NCBI RefSeq assembly: GCF_007991655.1
Contig: NZ_BJYT01000002.1
Location: 186,001 to 250,000, forward strand
Source: Segetibacter aerophilus
GTDB lineage: Bacteria > Bacteroidota > Bacteroidia > Chitinophagales > Chitinophagaceae
DNA length: 64,000 nt
Direction of reading: 5' to 3'
This document shows, piece by piece, positions 25,793 to 35,775 of the stretch. Numbering within the stretch: position 1 is the first letter of the stretch; every line of letters begins with the position of its first letter. The notes below the pieces were generated by a model. That model was not told the DNA's origin, did no database searches, and saw only the letters and a list, made by a program, of their open reading frames with translations. A program made the position numbers and the translations under genes.

Positions 25793-26152
25793 TTTTCAAA
25801 ATTTTTGCAATGGTACAACCTTTTAGCGGCTAAACTCTAATTACTGCTCCTTATAACAATATCATAGCAATTCTTCTGTAGTTGACAACAGTACCAGGTA
25901 GGATTGTGCTAGAAAGTTGAGAGAAGTACTGCCAGTTGAACGGTGTGACACAACGATGTCCAGTAGAGTTATATGGCCGGTTCAAGAAAAGGATACTTAT
26001 TGATCATTAAGAAGCAGCCGCAGTTACGTTTATATTTTTCTTAAAACATCCTGATTGAAATTATAGCTGCAGGAATAAGCGTTTACTTTGCGAAATTTTG
26101 AAGGCGTTTATTGCCACGCTCTTTCATCTGTTGTACCAATAAATTTGAATTC
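25793..26152. other. Divergent intergenic region J-domain / radical SAM
   Basis: About 360 bases with no supported gene. Holds a T/A-type copy of the dispersed element (25942-25958). A TTTACTTTGC box at 26082-26091, about 60 bases before the radical SAM start, resembles a -7 promoter element but is one base short in spacing. Confidence 0.45.
25942..25958 (+). repeat. Dispersed intergenic element, copy 6 (T/A variant)
   Basis: GGTGTGACACAACGATG followed by TCCAGTAGAG. The core here is the nine-base dyad TGTGACACA. Confidence 0.75.
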
Positions 26153-27451
26153 ATGCTTACACAATCGCCTTATATTTTATATTCAGATGGAGAGGGAAAT
26201 ATTTTTGAAGACACGTCTTTATATGTAACTGGAAGAACCGGTTGGGACGCGATGCCGGTACCGGAAGACGAATGGATGGAACTGCCTGAAGGAGGCCAGT
26301 TGTATGAATTGCCCGGACGACGTGGTATTGGTATCGATGTAAAAACGGGCGAAATGCGTTTGTGCCAAAAGGGTTGGGCTGTGGCAGCATTTATTCCACC
26401 GGCTCACACAGGTTTTTATCTGGCCGCGTACGAAACTGCGCCTGACGCTCCAACACTTCCCCTTTTTTGTTATACCGCGGCCGGTTGGTTGGATGAAAAA
26501 TTTTTTGTTCCCTGCATTCGTATTGAGCAAGACATCAGGCAGGATTGCAAAGGGTATGATGAGGTGGTGGTAGAGCAGGGCGTAAAGAAAGCGCTTGAAG
26601 CTTACCCTCATAATCGTCTCGTTGAGCATCTTGCCAACAACTGTGCGCTTACTTATAAATGTCCTGCTGCAAGAAATTATTTTCTTGGTCGCTGGGAATG
26701 CCCCATACCATCTTCCCCCGCGTGTAATGCCAATTGTGTCGGGTGTATTTCATTTCAGCCTGAAGATGAGACAATTGTTTCTACGCAGGATCGCTTAACG
26801 TTTAAGCCTTCGGCTGAGGAAATTGTAGAATACACAGTGCCTCACCTCGAAAGTGCGCCTTACCCAATAGTCAGCTTCGGACAGGGTTGTGAGGGAGAGC
26901 CGTTGCTGATGTGGCAGACGATACGTGAAGCGATTATTGAAATCAGGAAGCATACTTCAAGGGGTAGTATTAACATCAATACAAATGGATCTAAACCTGA
27001 TGCCGTTCGTGAGCTTTGTAAAGTGGGCCTAGATAGCATTCGGGTTAGTTTAAACAGTGTGCGTAAACATATTTACGAGCCGTACTATTGCCCTAATAAC
27101 TATGCTTTTGAAGATATCATTGAAAGCCTAAAAGTGGTAAACGGCTTCGGTGGCTGGACGAGCATTAATTACTTTGTTTTCCCTGGGATGACAGATAGTG
27201 TAGACGAATATGAAGCGCTTAGAAAAGTGATCAGGGAGACGGGTCTTAAAATGATACAGTGGCGCAATTTCAACATTGATCCTGACTGGTACCTTGGAAA
27301 AATAAACGTTGCAGACACAGGCGAATTCTTAGGTGTAAAGCAACTGCTCGAGTTGATACAGGAAGAATTTCCTGATTTAAAATACGGTTATTTCAACCCG
27401 CCAATAGAACGCATCAAGGGAAACTTTACAATGGACTTTGCGCATAAATAA
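26153..27451 (+). CDS. Radical SAM protein of unknown specificity
   Basis: A 432-residue radical SAM enzyme. The 4Fe-4S motif CxxxCxxC is CNANCVGC (Cys191, 195, 198), unusually far from the N-terminus, after a ~180-residue domain containing its own acidic and Cys-bearing segments. GQGCEGEPLL follows as the SAM-binding GGE-like motif, then SININTNGSKPD and SIRVSLNSVRKHIYEPYY. The late position of the cluster and the N-terminal domain do not match a pathway I can name. The ATG at 26153 is chosen; a longer frame exists upstream without support. Followed by the AATAATG repeat and a permease gene. Confidence 0.85.
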   Translation: MLTQSPYILYSDGEGNIFEDTSLYVTGRTGWDAMPVPEDEWMELPEGGQLYELPGRRGIGIDVKTGEMRLCQKGWAVAAFIPPAHTGFYLAAYETAPDAPTLPLFCYTAAGWLDEKFFVPCIRIEQDIRQDCKGYDEVVVEQGVKKALEAYPHNRLVEHLANNCALTYKCPAARNYFLGRWECPIPSSPACNANCVGCISFQPEDETIVSTQDRLTFKPSAEEIVEYTVPHLESAPYPIVSFGQGCEGEPLLMWQTIREAIIEIRKHTSRGSININTNGSKPDAVRELCKVGLDSIRVSLNSVRKHIYEPYYCPNNYAFEDIIESLKVVNGFGGWTSINYFVFPGMTDSVDEYEALRKVIRETGLKMIQWRNFNIDPDWYLGKINVADTGEFLGVKQLLELIQEEFPDLKYGYFNPPIERIKGNFTMDFAHK

Positions 27452-27454
27452 GCA

Positions 27455-27537
27455 AATAATGAATAATGAATAATGAATAATGAATAGTGAAAAATAAGTC
27501 GCCCTAATTATTAATTATTCATTATTCATTCTTCATT
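27455..27537. repeat. AATAATG tandem repeat with inverted partner
   Basis: Four exact copies of AATAATG (27455-27482) are followed after a 25-base spacer by a region rich in the complement (CATTATT, 27507-27537). The whole can fold into a long AT hairpin. It fills the gap between the radical SAM gene and the permease gene. Confidence 0.8.
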
Positions 27538-27545
27538 GCCCTACC

Positions 27546-28316
27546 ATGACTACTACACTCATCCTTCTTTGCCTTGCAGCTTTTTCGGCCGGCTTTATTG
27601 ATGCGATAGTCGGCGGGGGTGGATTGGTGCAAACGCCGGCCGGTTTGGTGTTGCTGCCTTTACTTCCTGTTTCTACTGTAATCGGCACTTTAAAAATTCC
27701 CGCCTTTAGTGGAACCTTCCTGGCCGCTATCCAGTATTTGCAAAAGGTGAAAATCAATTGGAAATTGGTCGTTACTATGGTTGTTTTGGCTTTCTGTTCG
27801 GCAATGGCTGGCTCTTATTGTTTAACTAAAGTTGACAATTATTTCATGAAGCCATTACTGCTTGTAATTTTGGTATTTGTCGCCGCCTACACCTACACCA
27901 AAAAGAACTTTGGCATACACGCTGAAAAAGATCACTCTTTCAATCAACAATTATTCTATTCTATCGCCACCAGCGTCGTACTTGGTTTTTACGATGGCTT
28001 TGTTGGTCCGGGCACGGGTAGTTTTTTAGTGCTTGCTTTTATCACCTTACTAGGTTTTGATTTTCTTAAGTCAAGCGCTCATGCGAAGATGGTTAACCTG
28101 GCTACCAACTTTGGATCAATATTATTTTTTGCGGGCAGCGGTCGCATCATTTTCGCCATTGCTATTCCTATGGCTATCTGCAACGCACTCGGCGGAGCAC
28201 TTGGTGCAAGGCTGGCCATTGTAAAAGGCAATAAGTTTATCCGCGTATTCTTTCTTGTCATCGTTGTCGGAACCATCCTGCGTTTTGCCTATGATGTGTT
28301 TTTTAAGCGAACGTAG
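27546..28316 (+). CDS. TauE/SafE (TSUP) family membrane permease
   Basis: A 256-residue integral membrane protein with about eight hydrophobic segments. The TSUP repeats are visible as AGFIDAIVGGGGLVQTP near the N-terminus and GFYDGFVGPGTGSFLVLAF in the second half. The family exports or takes up small anions, notably sulfite, sulfoacetate and similar organosulfur compounds. No sulfur-metabolism gene adjoins it, so the substrate is open. The start lies eight bases after the AATAATG repeat region. Confidence 0.9.
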   Translation: MTTTLILLCLAAFSAGFIDAIVGGGGLVQTPAGLVLLPLLPVSTVIGTLKIPAFSGTFLAAIQYLQKVKINWKLVVTMVVLAFCSAMAGSYCLTKVDNYFMKPLLLVILVFVAAYTYTKKNFGIHAEKDHSFNQQLFYSIATSVVLGFYDGFVGPGTGSFLVLAFITLLGFDFLKSSAHAKMVNLATNFGSILFFAGSGRIIFAIAIPMAICNALGGALGARLAIVKGNKFIRVFFLVIVVGTILRFAYDVFFKRT

Positions 28317-28691
28317 CTTTCACTCTTTTTACTTGCAATTACAAAAAATGTCTTAATCCCCGCTGTAGCTAGCTTGGGATGTTTTTGCGAGTATTATTTG
28401 AATCCTGTAAAAAGAAAAATTATTTCTCCAGCATTTGCTCCCTCTGAATCTTTTGTTGCGTCGCACACTTGTACCCAGGAATTTCACTGAACAACATCAG
28501 CGTAACAAATACGTTTTAACGATATTGGCTTTCGTTAATCGATTAAGATTTGTATTGTTCAACCATGCTTTCAATGAAAAAAGACCTGTTTGTTTCAAAA
28601 AGAAAAAATTGAAATCGGCATGAAATTTATAATCTTACAACTGCGAAATATAAAAGTCTAAAAAGATCTGTCACTGAGAAAAAATATAACT
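28317..28691. other. Intergenic region TSUP / TerB-like
   Basis: About 375 bases with no supported gene. Contains a minus-strand copy of the dispersed element (28455-28474). A short open frame starting within that copy is judged spurious. Confidence 0.45.
28455..28474 (-). repeat. Dispersed intergenic element, copy 7 (C/G variant)
   Basis: On the minus strand GTACAAGTGTGCGACGCAAC, a perfect match to the extended consensus, downstream of the permease gene. Confidence 0.75.
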
Positions 28692-29141
28692 ATGGGATTA
28701 TTTGATACTATGTTTAACGATGTTCCGCAAGAAAAAAAGTATGAGCCGCAAGACGTACGCGAGGCGTATGCAGTAGTCCTTTACTGTTGTGCAAATGCCG
28801 AAGGAAATATAGGTGACGAAGAAGTAGTGTTTATAGATTCTTTATTTTTAACGATGAGTATTTTCCAGGAGCATGATGGCGCCGACTACTTGCAGATTGC
28901 AGAAAAGGTGTATAGTAGTTATACTGTAGATCAACTTTTGGAAGGCAGTTTCCTTTTCATTAAAGATGAGCAACATGCGCAGCTCTTTTGTTATTGCTGC
29001 GACGTCTTTTTAGCCGACGGAGTAGTAACCGACGATGAGAAGAAAATTCTTGAAAAAATTGCTTCACTGGCAAAAATCGACGAGGAGACATCGAAAAAGA
29101 TAGTTGAAGTAGCAATTATCAGAAACGTAAAAGACACCTAG
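28692..29141 (+). CDS. TerB-like helical protein
   Basis: A 149-residue cytoplasmic, all-helical acidic protein. It has two DjlA/TerB-like halves: YCCANAEGNIGDEEVVFI and CDVFLADGVVTDDEKKIL, each with the small-residue/Asp-Gly turn and a following acidic helix that in TerB binds metal. The family is linked to tellurite resistance and stress sensing, but single TerB-like proteins are widespread without a known role. It ends 12 bases from the convergent hydroxylase gene with no terminator hairpin visible between. Confidence 0.75.
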   Translation: MGLFDTMFNDVPQEKKYEPQDVREAYAVVLYCCANAEGNIGDEEVVFIDSLFLTMSIFQEHDGADYLQIAEKVYSSYTVDQLLEGSFLFIKDEQHAQLFCYCCDVFLADGVVTDDEKKILEKIASLAKIDEETSKKIVEVAIIRNVKDT

Positions 29142-29153
29142 ATTTGTTCGAAC

Positions 29154-29951
29154 CTACTTATCAAATTTAATAAAAGGGCTTTTCATAAGAAACCAGAAGG
29201 TTTGCTTCTTTTCTTCATCAAATTCTTTTAATCCATAAACTATCGGTTGGGGAGGATAAGCCTTATAAGTTCCAAACATTCTATCCCAAATAATAAAAAT
29301 GTCTGCAAAATTTGAGTCAGTATAAAACTGCTCTTGTGCATGATGCAGCTTGTGAAAGTTGGGAGTAACTATCAATTTTCCAAGAATACTATCTATCGCT
29401 TTGGGAAAACTAACGTTGGTATGTTGAGCAATCATACATGGTGTTAGAATGATATAATAAAAGCCAAGTGTAATTGTATCGATTCCAAAAACAGCTGTGG
29501 CTACAATAACCCAGGTAGCTCCAACAAAAACATCAAGAGGATGATGTCTGAAGTAGGTAGACGCATCCAGGTGTGTGTCACTATGATGCACCCGATGCAG
29601 ACGCCACAACAATGCAGATCGATGAGAGAGCCGGTGAGACCAATACAAGGTGAAGTCGATACAAAAAACTCCAAGAACTATTTTCGCCCCAAAAGGAATG
29701 TTGAATTGATTCAATAAACCAATATAATGGCTGTTTATCCAATTAACCGAATAAACCTGTAGCAGGGCAACACAGTAACTTGCACCAATCAAAAGAAGGT
29801 AACACAGAACATTATTAAAAAGGTGATCGAGTCGGTTAGTGGCTTTATTAGCGGTAGTTTGAAAGTTTTCTATAATGTAGAAAAAAGCAATTAAAGCAAT
29901 GATGATATAGTTGAAAGGAAGGGCAATAAGCTTCTGTATGAATTGTTCCAT
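29154..29951 (-). CDS. Fatty acid hydroxylase / sterol desaturase family membrane enzyme
   Basis: A 265-residue di-iron membrane protein with four or so membrane helices. The histidine clusters of the family are all present: HRLSH, RLHRVHHSD, YFRHHPLD and FHKLHHAQE, followed by NFADIFIIWDRMFGTY. Members hydroxylate or desaturate lipids using O2. It is the last gene on the minus strand after an exosortase (48 bases upstream), but whether it belongs functionally to the sorting system is not clear. Confidence 0.9.
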   Translation of the reverse strand: MEQFIQKLIALPFNYIIIALIAFFYIIENFQTTANKATNRLDHLFNNVLCYLLLIGASYCVALLQVYSVNWINSHYIGLLNQFNIPFGAKIVLGVFCIDFTLYWSHRLSHRSALLWRLHRVHHSDTHLDASTYFRHHPLDVFVGATWVIVATAVFGIDTITLGFYYIILTPCMIAQHTNVSFPKAIDSILGKLIVTPNFHKLHHAQEQFYTDSNFADIFIIWDRMFGTYKAYPPQPIVYGLKEFDEEKKQTFWFLMKSPFIKFDK

Positions 29952-29999
29952 AAATGCGACGGGCCTTACGATTAGGAGAATTTATTACGTCAATATTTT

Positions 30000-30617
30000 T
30001 TAAACAACGGCGCAGTATGAAGCAGGCTTCTCCACTTTGGTCGCACTAAAATTTACCCGCTTGTCTTCCCGGTTATACAAATAGATCAACAAGAGTATAA
30101 GCAGGTAGGCAGCGACATTAAACATGTCGTGATGATCCATGTGTGTGCTTTGAGGCCACTTATTCTGAAGAGCTAACATTAGGATTGCAATTCTACAACA
30201 GTTGATAACCCAAATAAGAATCACTCCCGCAAAACACCACAAAAATTTTCTCTTTAAAGAGCTTCGGTCAGCGACTATGAAAGCTATCCAAAAACTCATA
30301 ACTCCAAAACCCAAACATTCATAAGAAAGAAAAACGCTCGCCCCCTTAGGTGCAAAAATGTTATTACCCGTTATGCTTGCTTTTACGCCAAATACGCTAT
30401 CAATGAAACTAGCCGCTTTTAAGATAGAAGTTGTTAGCCACGAGATGTAGTTTAAATACTTATCGAAAAAAGGAACGTAAAAGTTTTTGGGATCAGTAAG
30501 TCCCCAGTATATCAGGTTGAAGTAATACAGGGACAACAATAAAACAAGAAACTTAACAAAGTAGGAGAGATCGAAATAGCCGGAAACTTGTTTACCTAAC
30601 GGTCTAAAAGAATTCAT
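30000..30617 (-). CDS. Exosortase/archaeosortase family transpeptidase-like protein
   Basis: A 205-residue integral membrane protein. The catalytic triad of exosortases is visible: Cys101 in SYECLGFG, Arg142 in NCCRIAILM and a histidine in DHHDMFNVAAY (162/163). These enzymes are thought to cleave a C-terminal tripartite sorting signal and attach or release the protein. The gene lies 100 bases downstream of a 73-residue protein that carries such a signal, so the pair is probably a dedicated system. A strong hairpin lies between them. Confidence 0.87.
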   Translation of the reverse strand: MNSFRPLGKQVSGYFDLSYFVKFLVLLLSLYYFNLIYWGLTDPKNFYVPFFDKYLNYISWLTTSILKAASFIDSVFGVKASITGNNIFAPKGASVFLSYECLGFGVMSFWIAFIVADRSSLKRKFLWCFAGVILIWVINCCRIAILMLALQNKWPQSTHMDHHDMFNVAAYLLILLLIYLYNREDKRVNFSATKVEKPASYCAVV

Positions 30618-30638
30618 TGTATTGGATTTATTAGAATT

Positions 30639-30696
30639 TAAAGCCTGCTAGAAATAATGTGAACGTTTAAATTAATCATTACAATAGCAGGCTTTA
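30639..30696 (-). terminator. Inverted repeat between the sorting-signal gene and the exosortase gene
   Basis: TAAAGCCTGCTA (30639-30650) and TAGCAGGCTTTA (30685-30696) are exact complements, 12 bp, with a 34-base AT-rich loop. It follows the small substrate gene on the minus strand and precedes the exosortase start, so it may end most transcripts or protect the short upstream message. Confidence 0.6.
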
Positions 30697-30717
30697 TAAA
30701 TGGCAAGCGGCCCTAAA

Positions 30718-30939
30718 TTATTTTACATCCTCGGCTTGCATCTTATCATTCTTTCTTTTTTGATAAGCTTTTTTAGATGCATAGCCTATCCCTGCAGCAA
30801 CAAGCAAAGAAAGTCCGCCATCAAAGGGAGCATTAACTGGTGGCTCACGAACAATAATATCACCTGCTATACTAAGAAAAGGGATGCAGGCAACACAAAC
30901 AAAAGTGAACGCAAGAAACAAAAATCTGGATTTCATCAT
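30718..30939 (-). CDS. Small protein with exosortase sorting tail (PID-CTERM-like)
   Basis: A 73-residue protein that is little more than two targeting signals. Residues 1-25 are a Sec leader (FLFLAFTFVCVACIPFLSIA). After about 12 residues comes NAPFDGG (PFDGG at 38-42), a hydrophobic stretch LSLLVAAGIGYA and a basic end KKAYQKRK. This is the tripartite arrangement of exosortase substrates and resembles the P-[IF]-D-G-G type seen in Bacteroidota. The exosortase gene is next on the same strand. Only 10-12 residues would be left between the processed leader and the sorting motif. Confidence 0.8.
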   Translation of the reverse strand: MMKSRFLFLAFTFVCVACIPFLSIAGDIIVREPPVNAPFDGGLSLLVAAGIGYASKKAYQKRKNDKMQAEDVK

Positions 30940-31231
30940 TGTAGTTTTGGTTAAGAAATAGTATTTCGATTTAGAGAATAAGTAAGTTCAAGATTAGCGT
31001 CATAGAAGCTGGATAAAGAATGTTTTATGTAGTAGGACTATCTTTATTAGCACCGAAAAGGAATTAAGACAGTTGTACACGCCGTTTGTTAGACGTAGCT
31101 GTTTTTTTGGAGGTTGCAGCTAAACACAAAGAAACCCTTAGACGCGAATCAGCATACTTTTGATAAGTGGGAAAAGCGCTTAAAAAATAAAGAAGAATTT
31201 GTAGACCTTTAATATTCTAACATTAACGCAA

Positions 31232-31567
31232 ATGATTTCGCCGGAACAATTTAAAGAATTAGCTCTTTCGTTCCCTGACACAGCCGCGGCGCCACACTTT
31301 GACCGCACAGCGTTTAAAATAATTGGCAAACGAATATTTACCACGTTACATGAAAGAAGCCACACAGCTAATTTCAAGTTCTCACCTGCCGATCAATCTG
31401 TCTATACTTTAATTGATAAAAATGCAATTTATCCTGTTAACAATAAGTGGGGATTGCAAGGTTGGACAACTTTCGAATTAGATAAAATAGATAGTCAACT
31501 TGCATTGGAGGCTTTAGCAACAGCCTATGAAGAAGCACTGCAAAGTTCTTCAAAAAGAAAGTCTTGA
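31232..31567 (+). CDS. MmcQ/YjbR family protein
   Basis: A 111-residue cytoplasmic protein of the MmcQ/YjbR family (CyaY-like fold). The pattern is typical: FKELALSFPDTAAAPHFDRT, AFKIIGKRIFTTLHE, FKFSPADQ, and PVNNKWGLQGWTTFELD. The molecular role of the family is unsettled; some members bind DNA. It stands alone, divergent from the sorting-signal gene. Confidence 0.88.
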   Translation: MISPEQFKELALSFPDTAAAPHFDRTAFKIIGKRIFTTLHERSHTANFKFSPADQSVYTLIDKNAIYPVNNKWGLQGWTTFELDKIDSQLALEALATAYEEALQSSSKRKS

Positions 31568-31787
31568 TAAAGTATCTATTAAGGCGAGAGAGCATACAAT
31601 TCATCTTGCCTGAGGAGATTTTAATCAATAATTTCCCTTTCGTGCAAAAAGCTTGTTCGACAAAACGGTCAAAAGGGGAGAGCAGGCTAAAATGGGAGTG
31701 GGGGTAGGAATTTATACAGATGGAGTAATAGCGGCAGGATCATTTCAAGAAGTAATCTATTTATTAAATGGCCCTGCCTTACATATA

Positions 31788-31964
31788 CTATCGCATCCTT
31801 GTTAACTGGTTCAATAGACGCAGCTTTTCTTTCACCTGCTTCAATTCATACCTAAGCTCACTAAATTTATCTAGTGTACAATCGCTTAATAATTTTTCGC
31901 AAGTATTCTTCCTCTGTAATAGCTGTTCGCGGTCATCATGGCGGTCCTGAGATTGTTCGTTCAT
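31788..31964 (-). CDS. Small coiled-coil protein of unknown function
   Basis: A 58-residue frame with an ATG at 31964 and a TAG at 31788-31790. The product is highly charged and helical (MNEQSQDRHDDREQLLQRKN at the start, then KFSELRYELKQVKEKLRLL), with heptad leucines as in a coiled coil. There is no signal peptide and no family I know. A loosely paired hairpin (31733-31744 with 31768-31779, about 10 of 12 matching) lies just after the stop and could be a terminator. Real-gene status is moderately likely. Confidence 0.45.
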   Translation of the reverse strand: MNEQSQDRHDDREQLLQRKNTCEKLLSDCTLDKFSELRYELKQVKEKLRLLNQLTRMR

Positions 31965-32200
31965 AGTTTGTTTATTTTTTTATGCTATTTTTTCAAATAA
32001 ATCTACACAATACAACAAAGCGAATTTAGTTATAATATTTAGTTTCTGGCCTTCGCTTCAGATATAGTTTTCTTTATCTATAACTAAAAAAATGTTATTT
32101 TATTTTCCGTTTTCGAATATGAGGCAAAAGAAACAGGAAAGCTTCTATTAACGGGCAGTTGAATGGTCTCGAAAGCTGCTTTTTTTAGTATTGCTTTTAC

Positions 32201-34723
32201 CTATCCTTTCGTTATTGTAATCCTTTGATTAGTGGTAGATGAGAGATGATCAAAAGTGAGAGATCCGCGCGTATTGCTCTTGATAACCGGCCTTTGTTTT
32301 GGGTCGATGGTAACTGTATAAAAAGAATTAGGTGCTAATTGATTTATGGTATAGGTAATGTTACTTTTCTTCTTTCCAGGTGTGTTCTGTATCCAATCCA
32401 TCTCGTCAGCGCTCCATGTTTTTAATTCAACTTTAAGTTCGCCTCCGGTTTTTGCAATAAAAGAAGGGGCAGACGTATTACCATTAAAATAAAAAAGCTG
32501 ATTGCCAAGGCTGGAAAAACCAAAGTCTTTATCACTCGTAATCTTAAATCTACCGTTTGAAACCGTATACTTTTTTAGGTCAAGGTCTATCAATAATTTC
32601 TGGCCTTGGTAGTTATATTTCAGTTGTGTTCCGGCAAGTTGACTGGTAATATGAGGATTTAGGTAGAACCTGTTATACAAAGGATTTATACCATAAATTG
32701 CGTGGTACAACCCAACAACAGAAAGACTATTTCCGGAAAGGATATCATCTCCTAAGCCATCTTGTTTTTTGCGGCCGTACCGCTGGTAAGCAAGTCCATC
32801 TTTAGCGTACCTGTCCATTACATTAGTTACATATTTCAATGCCAGTTCAGGTTTGTAATCTGCGTAAGCTTTTACACCGACAGCTCCCCAGGACAAAAAC
32901 AGGTCGCCATTTTCGTAAGAAGGAAAAGGGTATTGCGTCTCTCTGCCTTCGCCGTCCGCATAGCTCGACATTGTTAGCGGCCAGAAGAAAAGATTTTCTT
33001 TTTTCATCTGTGTCTCGATATCGTCGAGGATTGTTTTAACTCTAGCATCATCGTCACAAATACCATAAGCAATAGCCATAAAATTCACGGGAGTAACCAT
33101 GTTTCTACCATGAACGCTTTTGTCTTTATCTAACCAGTGCACGTAGCATTTCTTCTCATCATCCCAAAAACCTCCTTCTGTTGTTGACTTATTAAAACTT
33201 GTTTTCAGCTTTGCTGCAAAGTCCTGGTATTGTTGGGCTTTTACTGTATTTCCAAGTTCGCGTTCTACGATTGTCCATTTAGTAAGAGCATGATACAACT
33301 TGGCGTTTACAAAGGCGTTTTCATAAGCGGCCCAAATAATGTCGATCCAATCGCTGCCTCTTTTTTCTTTGTAACTATCGGTCATCATTTCCACCAAGCC
33401 ATCTTTGTCGCTGTCCCTGTTGATGATCCAATCCAAAGCTTTTTCGCAAGAACGTTGATGTGTCTTTACCCAGGCCCTGTCACCAGTCTGGTCGAACAAG
33501 TCAGCGACATTCGTAACCAGGTCCGGATTTGAGTCCATTAAAAATCCCCACTGTGCTTCATAAAATCCTTTGTCCGTCACTTGCCCGGGCATAATGTCAA
33601 CATTGTTGTAAGCCCACCGTGCCCAGACCCGACCGTCACGCTTTATAGCGTTGTCGCGATAGTAATCGAGACATTCTTTATAGCCTTGCAAATATGTGTT
33701 GTCATTAATGGCGAGACCCATTTGAGCGATGTACTGCTCATGTAAACAGATCGGCCCATAGGGTGTGTGCCAACTGTTTCCCCCAAAATGTTTTGCGTCA
33801 ATTACACCAATTCTTGCAACGGTATTTAAAACTGAACTTACCTGTTCACCGTTTACTCCTACGAATTTTCCGCGATCGAATTCTTTATTAAAATCAAAAT
33901 AAGAAAGTGTTACACATTGAGATGTTTTGCCCGCGGCAATATTGAAAGCAGACCAAACATCGGTTCTTTGTCGAATAAATCTTTTGCGGTTAGTGCCACT
34001 GTCAAACCGGGGAATCATCTCTCCATCGGAGACGGTAATTGCATACTTCAAATGGTCGTCATTTGTTCTGCTATACTTCATTGCAACTTGCTTTCCCGCG
34101 GCATCAACTGACACCTTTAGACCGTTACCTGTTTTACTATTCCAAAATCTTGACGAGTTCGTATGCACGCCGTACGTACAAAGCTTTTCGTTAAAAAGGT
34201 AAAACCAAGCTAATCCACCATAACCCTGGTAAGCACCTTCCCATGTATTGATATTATTGAAATTGAAAGAAGGCAGTGCTACTTCTTCTACCAGTGCAGG
34301 CTTTGAGAAAGTTCTCTCAACATCCATCTTAATGTCGTTGTCCCTAATAATAAACTTCCAGGTTTCGCTAATTATCAGGTCATTATTTCCATATGAAACA
34401 TTGCTAACTCTTACCGTATTTTCTGTAACAGCTAGTGCAGGCGATGAATTTGTATGGAGGGAAGAATAAGTAGTCGAAGCAGTTCTCACTTCAGAATAAA
34501 TACCTGCATTTCCATCTATTACTTTTTGACCGTTAACTTCTAAAGCTGAGACATTTGCTTTTTGATTGTAATCAAGTGTGAGTTTTATTTTTCGGTTTCC
34601 AAACGTGATCGTTTTGTTTTTAGCACTATTGACTATTACGGTTTGAGCAAAATTGATGTTCAAAACATGCAAACTAACAACACACAGAAAAATTCTAAAA
34701 GCAAGTGTCCTCCTTATAAGCAT
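32201..34723 (-). CDS. Secreted six-hairpin (alpha/alpha)6 glycosidase-like protein
   Basis: An 840-residue secreted protein (leader ends near NINFAQ). Residues ~27-280 are a beta-rich N-terminal domain; ~300-690 form an (alpha/alpha)6-barrel with glycosidase-type features such as CLHEQYIAQMGLAI, GRVWARWAYNN, GFYEAQWGFLMDSNPD, RDSDKDGLVEM, GSDWIDIIWAAYENAF and PFPSYENGDLFLSWGA; a C-terminal beta domain follows. This order is that of GH78/GH95/GH63-like enzymes, but the exact GH family cannot be fixed by eye. Acidic residues in those segments are catalytic candidates. The PhyH gene lies 27 bases upstream on the same strand. Confidence 0.75.
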   Translation of the reverse strand: MLIRRTLAFRIFLCVVSLHVLNINFAQTVIVNSAKNKTITFGNRKIKLTLDYNQKANVSALEVNGQKVIDGNAGIYSEVRTASTTYSSLHTNSSPALAVTENTVRVSNVSYGNNDLIISETWKFIIRDNDIKMDVERTFSKPALVEEVALPSFNFNNINTWEGAYQGYGGLAWFYLFNEKLCTYGVHTNSSRFWNSKTGNGLKVSVDAAGKQVAMKYSRTNDDHLKYAITVSDGEMIPRFDSGTNRKRFIRQRTDVWSAFNIAAGKTSQCVTLSYFDFNKEFDRGKFVGVNGEQVSSVLNTVARIGVIDAKHFGGNSWHTPYGPICLHEQYIAQMGLAINDNTYLQGYKECLDYYRDNAIKRDGRVWARWAYNNVDIMPGQVTDKGFYEAQWGFLMDSNPDLVTNVADLFDQTGDRAWVKTHQRSCEKALDWIINRDSDKDGLVEMMTDSYKEKRGSDWIDIIWAAYENAFVNAKLYHALTKWTIVERELGNTVKAQQYQDFAAKLKTSFNKSTTEGGFWDDEKKCYVHWLDKDKSVHGRNMVTPVNFMAIAYGICDDDARVKTILDDIETQMKKENLFFWPLTMSSYADGEGRETQYPFPSYENGDLFLSWGAVGVKAYADYKPELALKYVTNVMDRYAKDGLAYQRYGRKKQDGLGDDILSGNSLSVVGLYHAIYGINPLYNRFYLNPHITSQLAGTQLKYNYQGQKLLIDLDLKKYTVSNGRFKITSDKDFGFSSLGNQLFYFNGNTSAPSFIAKTGGELKVELKTWSADEMDWIQNTPGKKKSNITYTINQLAPNSFYTVTIDPKQRPVIKSNTRGSLTFDHLSSTTNQRITITKG

Positions 34724-34750
34724 CTTGGCAAATAGTTTTAAAATCGTCTA

Positions 34751-35569
34751 TTATTTTTTGACAGCGCTGTAAATAAGAGGATTTTGTTTCTCGTCGTTTA
34801 ATGGATCGCCAATCTTGAGGTTTGCGATCTGTTCGTCACTTAAAATGTTTTGTGTTCCATTATAAGTATTGCCATCGGGCATGTAGGCGCAAGTCATAGC
34901 GCGACGAAGACCAGGGGTCATATTTGCATGCGCACCGTGAATGGTTAAACCATTGTGAAAAGAACAGCTACCCGCTTTCATAGGTGCGGCAACCGACTTA
35001 CTTTTTCTAAACTCAGGATATGTCGTAAAGATCGCTCCCATGTTTTTGCCAATTCCGCGGTTATCAAAAGTCGTTTTTTGATAAGAACCAGGTATAAAAA
35101 AGAGGCATCCATTTTCATAAGTAGCATCATCGAGAGCCACCCAAATAGACAACGCCTTCCTATCGCTGAAGGACCAATATGGCGTATCAAGGTGCCACGA
35201 AGTTGGGTTTGCCCAAGGCTTTTTTATCAGCGCCTGGTCATGCCAAATTCGTATTCCATCCACTCCAGCCAATTGCGCGGCCATCTTACCAAGCCTTTCA
35301 TCCAACATCAACGTTGCCATCTTTTCATTATCCTGCCACAGGTTGATCAATTGGTCAAACACATTATCGTAGTAGCTCTTGTCGGCGTCGTCGCCTTTGC
35401 CATATACTTCTTTACGATCAGGCATTTTGTTGCCGTTTCTTTTTGCAACAGCTTCATCTAAAGCCGTACGCCAAAATGCTAGTTCTTCGGGAGATAGAAA
35501 GTCTTCAATAACTACAAAACCATCGTTTTGGTATTTCGCAATCTGCTCTTGTGAAAGCTCACTTTTCAT
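34751..35569 (-). CDS. Phytanoyl-CoA dioxygenase (PhyH) family protein
   Basis: A 272-residue Fe(II)/2-oxoglutarate-dependent dioxygenase. The iron ligands are the HxD in TSWHLDTPYWSF and the distal His in SFHNGLTIHGAHAN; PGLRRAMTCAYMPDG supplies the 2-oxoglutarate-binding Arg. FVVIEDFLSPEELAFW at the N-terminus is typical. The family hydroxylates small molecules. It lies 27 bases upstream of the glycosidase gene and probably forms an operon with it, suggesting a joint role in degrading a glycoside; the substrate is unknown. Confidence 0.88.
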   Translation of the reverse strand: MKSELSQEQIAKYQNDGFVVIEDFLSPEELAFWRTALDEAVAKRNGNKMPDRKEVYGKGDDADKSYYDNVFDQLINLWQDNEKMATLMLDERLGKMAAQLAGVDGIRIWHDQALIKKPWANPTSWHLDTPYWSFSDRKALSIWVALDDATYENGCLFFIPGSYQKTTFDNRGIGKNMGAIFTTYPEFRKSKSVAAPMKAGSCSFHNGLTIHGAHANMTPGLRRAMTCAYMPDGNTYNGTQNILSDEQIANLKIGDPLNDEKQNPLIYSAVKK

Positions 35570-35775
35570 ACAGCAATTTTATCGTTAGAATTAGTTAACC
35601 ACTTCAAATCTAGTAGATAATCTTGTTGAAGCCCTGGGGAAAATGAAATTAGTTTTTCCTCTTTTTTCAAATAGGTGCAAATAGTAAACAAAGTACTAAC
35701 TGCTCTTTTCTGCTGCGAAAGCACTGTTAATTTGAGAAGATAATTTTTCTAATGTCAAAAATGTTAATACTTTTG

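Follow-up and report, generated by a model that had tools for sequence, protein, structure and literature searches.

The locus studied here raises the question of what use an exosortase can have for a protein of 73 amino acids that is nearly all targeting signal. Both genes lie on the minus strand of a 64,000-nucleotide stretch of Segetibacter aerophilus DNA (the window), the micro-gene first (30718..30939) and the exosortase gene 100 bp later (30000..30617).

The gene pair in the window

The 73-amino-acid protein matches the NCBIfam model PID_CTERM (NF046080) at residues 38-61 with 38.7 bits (E 6.3e-10), above the membership cut-off of 26, and the open reading frame (ORF) is therefore not a chance reading. 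It starts with a probable signal peptide of approximately residues 1-26 (30862..30939, minus strand), whose cleavage site was judged by eye. Next come a probable mature stretch of about 11 amino acids, DIIVREPPVNA (residues 27-37; 30829..30861, minus strand), read by eye from the ORF, and the PID-CTERM sorting signal (residues 38-61; 30757..30828, minus strand) with PFDGG, a short hydrophobic helix and basic residues rich in Lys and Arg. The Pro-Glu-Pro that defines a PEP-CTERM tail is replaced by P-F-D-G-G, and the protein lacks the [AGST]Q start found after the signal peptide in many of its relatives. A Cys near the signal peptide would allow a lipoprotein reading; judged by eye, most PID-CTERM relatives have no Cys at that place. 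The type IX secretion system (T9SS) type A domain TIGR04183 was absent among the matches to the protein in a profile search with E up to 10, although few matches above about 0.1 pass its filters.

The exosortase of 205 amino acids matches the exosortase/archaeosortase signature TIGR04178 (47.6 bits, cut-off 23) and Pfam PF09721 (33.7 bits, cut-off 25.7). Its best subfamily is XrtY (NF046083) with 133.5 bits, short of the cut-off of 160, and it is called XrtY-like here only by this best match and by its position in the tree. The EpsH-type model TIGR02602 gives 19.5 bits with a cut-off of 105.55. The conserved Cys/Arg/His residues of an exosortase are present: C101 and R142 are invariant in all 19 aligned exosortases adjacent to a PID-CTERM gene, and H162 is nearly so, the His standing one position later in one locus (L172). 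The sequence-only reading had described a small protein of signal peptide, short mature part, PFDGG, helix and basic tail, followed on the same strand by an exosortase with a Cys-Arg-His triad, and both descriptions agree with the profile matches and the alignment.

A stable hairpin, terminator- or attenuator-like, lies between the two genes (30639..30696, minus strand; arms AAAGCCTGCTA / TAGCAGGCTTT) with a fold z of -3.81, and one of 200 shuffles was as stable. Judged by simple shuffles, hairpins with z below -2 occur in the 90 bases behind 50 of 84 PID-CTERM genes and in the 90 bases before 14 of 79; one exception to the pattern is G002:C130 (z -0.37). A hairpin behind the small gene fits a small gene that is made in excess over the exosortase.

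Downstream of the pair and on the same strand there is a fatty-acid hydroxylase family gene (29154..29951; PF04116, 97.3 bits), the one neighbour that was profile-scanned, which probably stands outside the exosortase system. No gene of an exopolysaccharide locus was recognised by eye around the exosortase within 26000-35600. When nine window genes were compared by tblastn with ten loci holding a PID-CTERM gene and an exosortase (nine distinct, two being on the same contig), matches were limited to the exosortase and the small gene. A conserved wider operon was rejected, as all seven other genes, the fatty-acid hydroxylase included, were without a match in those ten loci.

The exosortase tree

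A tree of 47 exosortase rows places all ten XrtY rows adjacent to a PID-CTERM gene inside one supported clade of 12 rows (96/90). Of the remaining two rows, one is identical to a PID-adjacent row and one is a long branch. The window exosortase groups with the XrtY-like rows, apart from three rows labelled XrtX by eye, while the XrtY-like paralogue on contig C1 of its own genome is in a different clade. It is 48% identical to the exosortase of G009, a genome of the same genus; Segetibacter koreensis DSM 18137 has an exosortase identical to that of G007, another genome of the genus. The tree left out L225 (same contig as G009:C67) and G005C130, and four rows labelled non-adjacent (L227, L235, L237 and L246) come from contigs that end too close upstream to judge. 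One exosortase that groups with those of Bacteroidota (L244) belongs to a metagenome-assembled genome titled Streptomyces griseus, which is probably a mislabelled bin. No close relative of the window exosortase was found in viral contigs.

The PID-CTERM proteins

Among 99 relatives, the window's own genome included, 36 genomes contain 84 PID-CTERM ORFs of 47-125 amino acids (median 71.5), some of which are shortened by contig ends. This set omits one ORF over the cut-off (G056:C98:9190-9267) and includes one below it (G002:C280, 25.2 bits with a cut-off of 26); counts out of 85 include the window gene. Frames over the cut-off reach at most 139 codons in the relatives and 183 codons in a sample of 148 genomes from the phylum, and neither set contains a larger protein with a PID tail over the cut-off. 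Candidates with frames of 860, 307 and 193 amino acids all score below the NF046080 cut-off. To consist of nearly all targeting signals is the rule across the PID-CTERM family and no oddity of the window gene.

Behind the signal peptide, 60 of the 85 proteins have an [AGST]Q start, with 8-61 residues before the motif (median 14); the mature parts of these 60 are rich in Gly, Pro and Asp. Conservation is higher in the helix and the basic tail than in the mature part, which is unconserved among the partners of PID-adjacent XrtY enzymes and varies in sequence and in length even between the closest pairs of PID-CTERM gene and exosortase. One fixed peptide function is disfavoured because of this lack of conservation.

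Small genes of the same build with variant motifs were found behind large T9SS cargo genes in 4 of 20 stretches around cargo of the A3 type (described below), mostly in genomes without a PID match. In these four genes PITG, PISG, PIHF or PIDEH stands in place of the PID motif (genomes G143, G238, G147 and G187; loci L251, L255, L256 and L260). Our own PID model gives E values of 0.0023, 3e-5 and 0.024 for three of them and does not match that of G187. The family is therefore probably wider than the NCBIfam model can detect.

Some PID-CTERM genes look decayed or are incomplete. In G000, a stretch resembling the end of a decayed PID-CTERM gene (C8:125636-125671) is located upstream of a second exosortase (C8:124837-125088; L014), which is XrtX-like by eye. 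The end of contig C40 and the start of C53 in the same genome (L141 and L142) carry two similar PID-CTERM genes shortened by the contig ends, and the three PID copies in G053 are likewise alike and close to contig ends. The genes on C40 and C53 and those in G053 may lie in repeats.

Conservation of the pair

The small gene is found within 3 kb of an exosortase in 22 of the 85 cases, and 20 of the 85 lie directly upstream on the same strand at less than 1 kb. These 20 precede 19 of the 67 retained exosortase hits, a set without three further long-frame hits and the majority of those below the cut-off, though it keeps that of G008, which is below it. Among named genomes 26 XrtY loci were found, only five of which have a small gene directly upstream, and in four of the 26 the contig ends too close to tell. 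The sequence-only reading had named two findings that would count against it, many larger proteins with the same tail and a small gene that is not conserved beside the exosortase in relatives. Neither was found, since all PID-CTERM frames over the cut-off have 183 codons or fewer and 20 genes keep the position directly upstream. Its proposal that processing would leave a short peptide at most is supported at the level of sequence, as is a dedicated pair of exosortase and substrate.

Exosortases and PID-CTERM genes also occur in the same genomes. Of the relatives, 32 of the 36 that have PID-CTERM also have an exosortase, compared with 8 of the 63 others (12 of 63 when XrtN-like genomes are counted); taking a single genome from each genus gives 23 of 26 and 8 of 57. 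The phylum sample gives 31 of 31 and 32 of 117, or 28 of 28 and 31 of 113 without the seven genomes shared with the relatives. Four genomes (G015, G024, G032 and G094) were set aside because their best exosortase-like hit is in a frame of 437-481 amino acids; judged by frame length, these are presumably XrtN-like. Four genomes with PID-CTERM (G001, G026, G033 and G055) have no exosortase match at E 0.01. One of these, G033, has three PID-CTERM genes over the cut-off, and its completeness is scored 100%.

Type IX secretion cargo beside the small genes

Many PID-CTERM genes are located behind genes for T9SS cargo. A same-strand upstream neighbour within 450 bp is found for 58 of the 85 genes; nine are at contig ends where the upstream gene is not visible, and 18, including the window gene, have another arrangement. 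Of the 58 neighbours, 46 (behind which lie 46 of the 85 PID-CTERM genes) carry TIGR04183 at E 0.01 or better, a threshold laxer than the curated cut-off of 23 bits. A row-by-row check of nine upstream genes gave eight matches, three of them below 23 bits; the ninth gene, before the pair in G085:C21, has an A3 region and no TIGR04183 match. At the same threshold a whole genome contains only 39-89 TIGR04183 domains (five genomes counted). According to our own model of the T9SS tail, 41 of 62 upstream frames carry it, and these have a median of 1272 codons and a maximum of 4920.

The order cargo gene, small gene, exosortase gene is found in G022, G072, G069, G029, G003, G013 and twice in G002, and in G207 an A3 region is followed by a PID-CTERM gene and an exosortase. 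The G013 locus (L157) contains, upstream of the exosortase, two cargo genes whose products end in identical residues and which have near-identical PID-CTERM genes behind them; one of the small-gene copies has a broken frame. There is no cargo gene beside the window pair, and a partner would therefore be encoded elsewhere in the genome.

The A3 region

Many cargo proteins have in common a region of about 280 residues upstream of the sorting domain (VERYIPA ... LVGNPYASP ... GQAFFVQ), here called A3. It was aligned from 13 rows, taken from 27 aligned cargo proteins and coming from 10 genomes, and none of the 13 rows has a Pfam or NCBIfam match at E 0.01. An AlphaFold model of A3 from three sequences gave no usable fold (mean pLDDT 44.7). 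The region is present in 35 of 62 upstream frames, a partly circular count.

A3 occurs in 38 of the 99 relatives, namely in 32 of 36 genomes with PID-CTERM compared with 6 of 63 without. The difference remains when each genus is represented by a single genome (22 of 26 versus 6 of 57) and when the ten donor genomes are left out (22 of 26 versus 6 of 63). The figures for the phylum sample are 28 of 31 versus 11 of 117, or 25 of 28 versus 11 of 113 without the seven shared genomes; T9SS was counted in the relatives only, and genomes lacking it may raise the contrast in the phylum. Fisher p values that ignore kinship are 1e-15 for the relatives, 5e-18 for the phylum and 1e-11 without the donors. 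Since T9SS is present in 98 of the 99 relatives, its presence cannot explain the PID pattern there. The overlap is incomplete in both directions: A3 is found without a PID match in 6 relatives and 11 phylum genomes, and PID-CTERM without A3 in 4 relatives and 3 phylum genomes.

The two are often neighbours as well. The PID motif is found 771-1341 bp behind A3 on the same strand for at least 29 of the 78 PID-CTERM genes in the phylum sample, in a list of adjacent genes that mostly leaves out the A3 hits of genomes without PID-CTERM. The window itself contains no A3 match; its genome has A3 cargo on contigs C10 (two), C8 (two) and C15, with small genes beside both on C10.

Possible function of the micro-substrate

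The explanation that we tentatively favour, though with slightly less than even confidence, is that the window exosortase cleaves and anchors a dedicated micro-substrate and that such anchored short peptides serve T9SS adhesins as surface partners. The sequence features, the small size throughout the family, the gene pair, the neighbourhood of T9SS cargo and the co-occurrence with A3 are what this proposal starts from, and from them we infer the following course of events. The Sec pathway would export the 73-amino-acid protein, whose signal peptide would then be removed while the C-terminal helix would keep it in the inner membrane. By analogy with PEP-CTERM and GlyGly-CTERM proteins (PMC1569441 and PMC7468200), the exosortase would cut at or beside P-F-D-G-G. 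By the same analogy, a peptide of about 11-16 residues would be joined through its new C-terminus to an acceptor, probably a glycan or a lipid on its way to the cell surface.

Numerous genes across Bacteroidota would yield micro-substrates of this kind. About half of these genes lie right behind genes for large adhesin-like T9SS cargo, and the anchored peptides would most likely be a tether, docking point or spacer for those cargo proteins. Removal of the sorting domain should leave the A3 side of the cargo near the membrane, where the partner would sit. A partnership of peptide and cargo is suggested because PID-CTERM genes keep company with T9SS cargo; neighbourhood and co-occurrence do not prove contact between the two. 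In a more specific version, surface display would have two parts, with micro-peptide conjugates made by exosortases, many encoded behind their own T9SS adhesin, and with A3 docking on the peptide and holding the cargo at the surface. This is possible, although we consider it rather unlikely in that form.

A plain sorting pair, in which exopolysaccharide or lipid would be the partner of the peptide and the T9SS neighbours would simply belong to the same surface regulon, is unlikely, though the most probable of the alternatives. Exopolysaccharide is the classic association of exosortases (PMC1569441). The XrtY-like paralogue on C1 is surrounded by genes that by eye resemble those for glycosyltransferases, and in L229 a pair of PID-CTERM gene and exosortase stands inside a same-strand cluster resembling polysaccharide synthesis genes, again by eye. 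A shared regulon alone would, however, not need adjacency, and T9SS-type genes are 46 of the 58 same-strand upstream neighbours; among the relatives, 98 of 99 of which have T9SS, A3 moreover varies together with PID-CTERM. It is less probable still that the small protein stays uncleaved as a helper for assembly or export of large cargo in the inner membrane, its resemblance to a sorting signal being incidental. The better conservation of helix and tail and the four PID-CTERM genomes without a detected exosortase would agree with such a helper, but an exosortase is present in all 31 PID genomes of the phylum sample and the gene order is fixed, with 20 of the 22 PID-CTERM genes within 3 kb lying in front of the exosortase.

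Release of the peptide as a signal or pheromone is very improbable. The predicted mature part has a suitable size in the 60 proteins with an [AGST]Q start (8-61 residues, median 14), but a pheromone would be hard to reconcile with mature parts that differ in sequence and length between the closest pairs. Least credible is the decoy or regulator proposed by the sequence-only reading, a small protein that would keep the exosortase busy. It took its appeal from a product that is nearly all targeting signal, but a search for this tail type found no larger PID-tail protein over the cut-off in 99 relatives or 148 phylum genomes. A decoy is unlikely because all proteins over the cut-off with the tail are tiny and no larger substrate with it is left to compete.

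If the PID-CTERM micro-genes are exosortase substrates that serve T9SS adhesins, as we favour, two surface systems that have been treated apart become one testable system, with A3 as a candidate region and many natural gene pairs for testing.

Comparison with known systems

The PID tail and the exosortase are already represented in NCBIfam, and the pair is therefore of a known kind. The window protein has the C-terminal signal of PID-CTERM (NF046080) above the curated cut-off; that entry was compared by name and description, and the small size of its members and their T9SS neighbourhood come from the present analysis. Among the papers listed from a search of the open literature, none deals with PID-CTERM, XrtX or XrtY. 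What we would call new is the set of substrates that are all tiny, the position of their genes after those for T9SS cargo and their co-occurrence with A3. Among the exosortase models Exosortase Y (NF046083) is the best match of the window enzyme, but the score remains below its cut-off; what sets the enzyme apart from Exosortase Y and X (NF046083 and NF046081) in general is its place in a subclade whose members have the substrate gene immediately upstream.

The PEP-CTERM/EpsH system (PMC1569441) is alike in its signal peptide, motif, helix and basic tail and in a membrane enzyme with a proposed catalytic triad. It differs in the motif, which is PEP instead of P-F-D-G-G, and all PID-CTERM proteins found here are tiny. 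According to that paper, PEP-CTERM genes are mostly single-gene operons after large intergenic regions, whereas about half of the PID-CTERM genes follow T9SS cargo genes.

XrtF of Flavobacterium johnsoniae is likewise an exosortase from Bacteroidota; the window enzyme scores 45 bits with the XrtF model, which has a cut-off of 90. Deletion of XrtF abolished zorbs and lowered biofilm formation and sand colonization in a 2024 study, and T9SS deletions (porV, porU or sprA) gave like defects (PMC10936215). That study leaves the substrates of XrtF to future research.

Two systems may serve as models of how the window pair works, although the accounts used here mention no tiny substrates. Archaeosortases cut a C-terminal signal and the new end is joined to a lipid (PMC7157517). 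In the rhombosortase/GlyGly-CTERM system the new end is joined to a moiety deduced to hold glycerophosphoethanolamine (PMC7468200), and here the enzyme belongs to another family than the exosortases.
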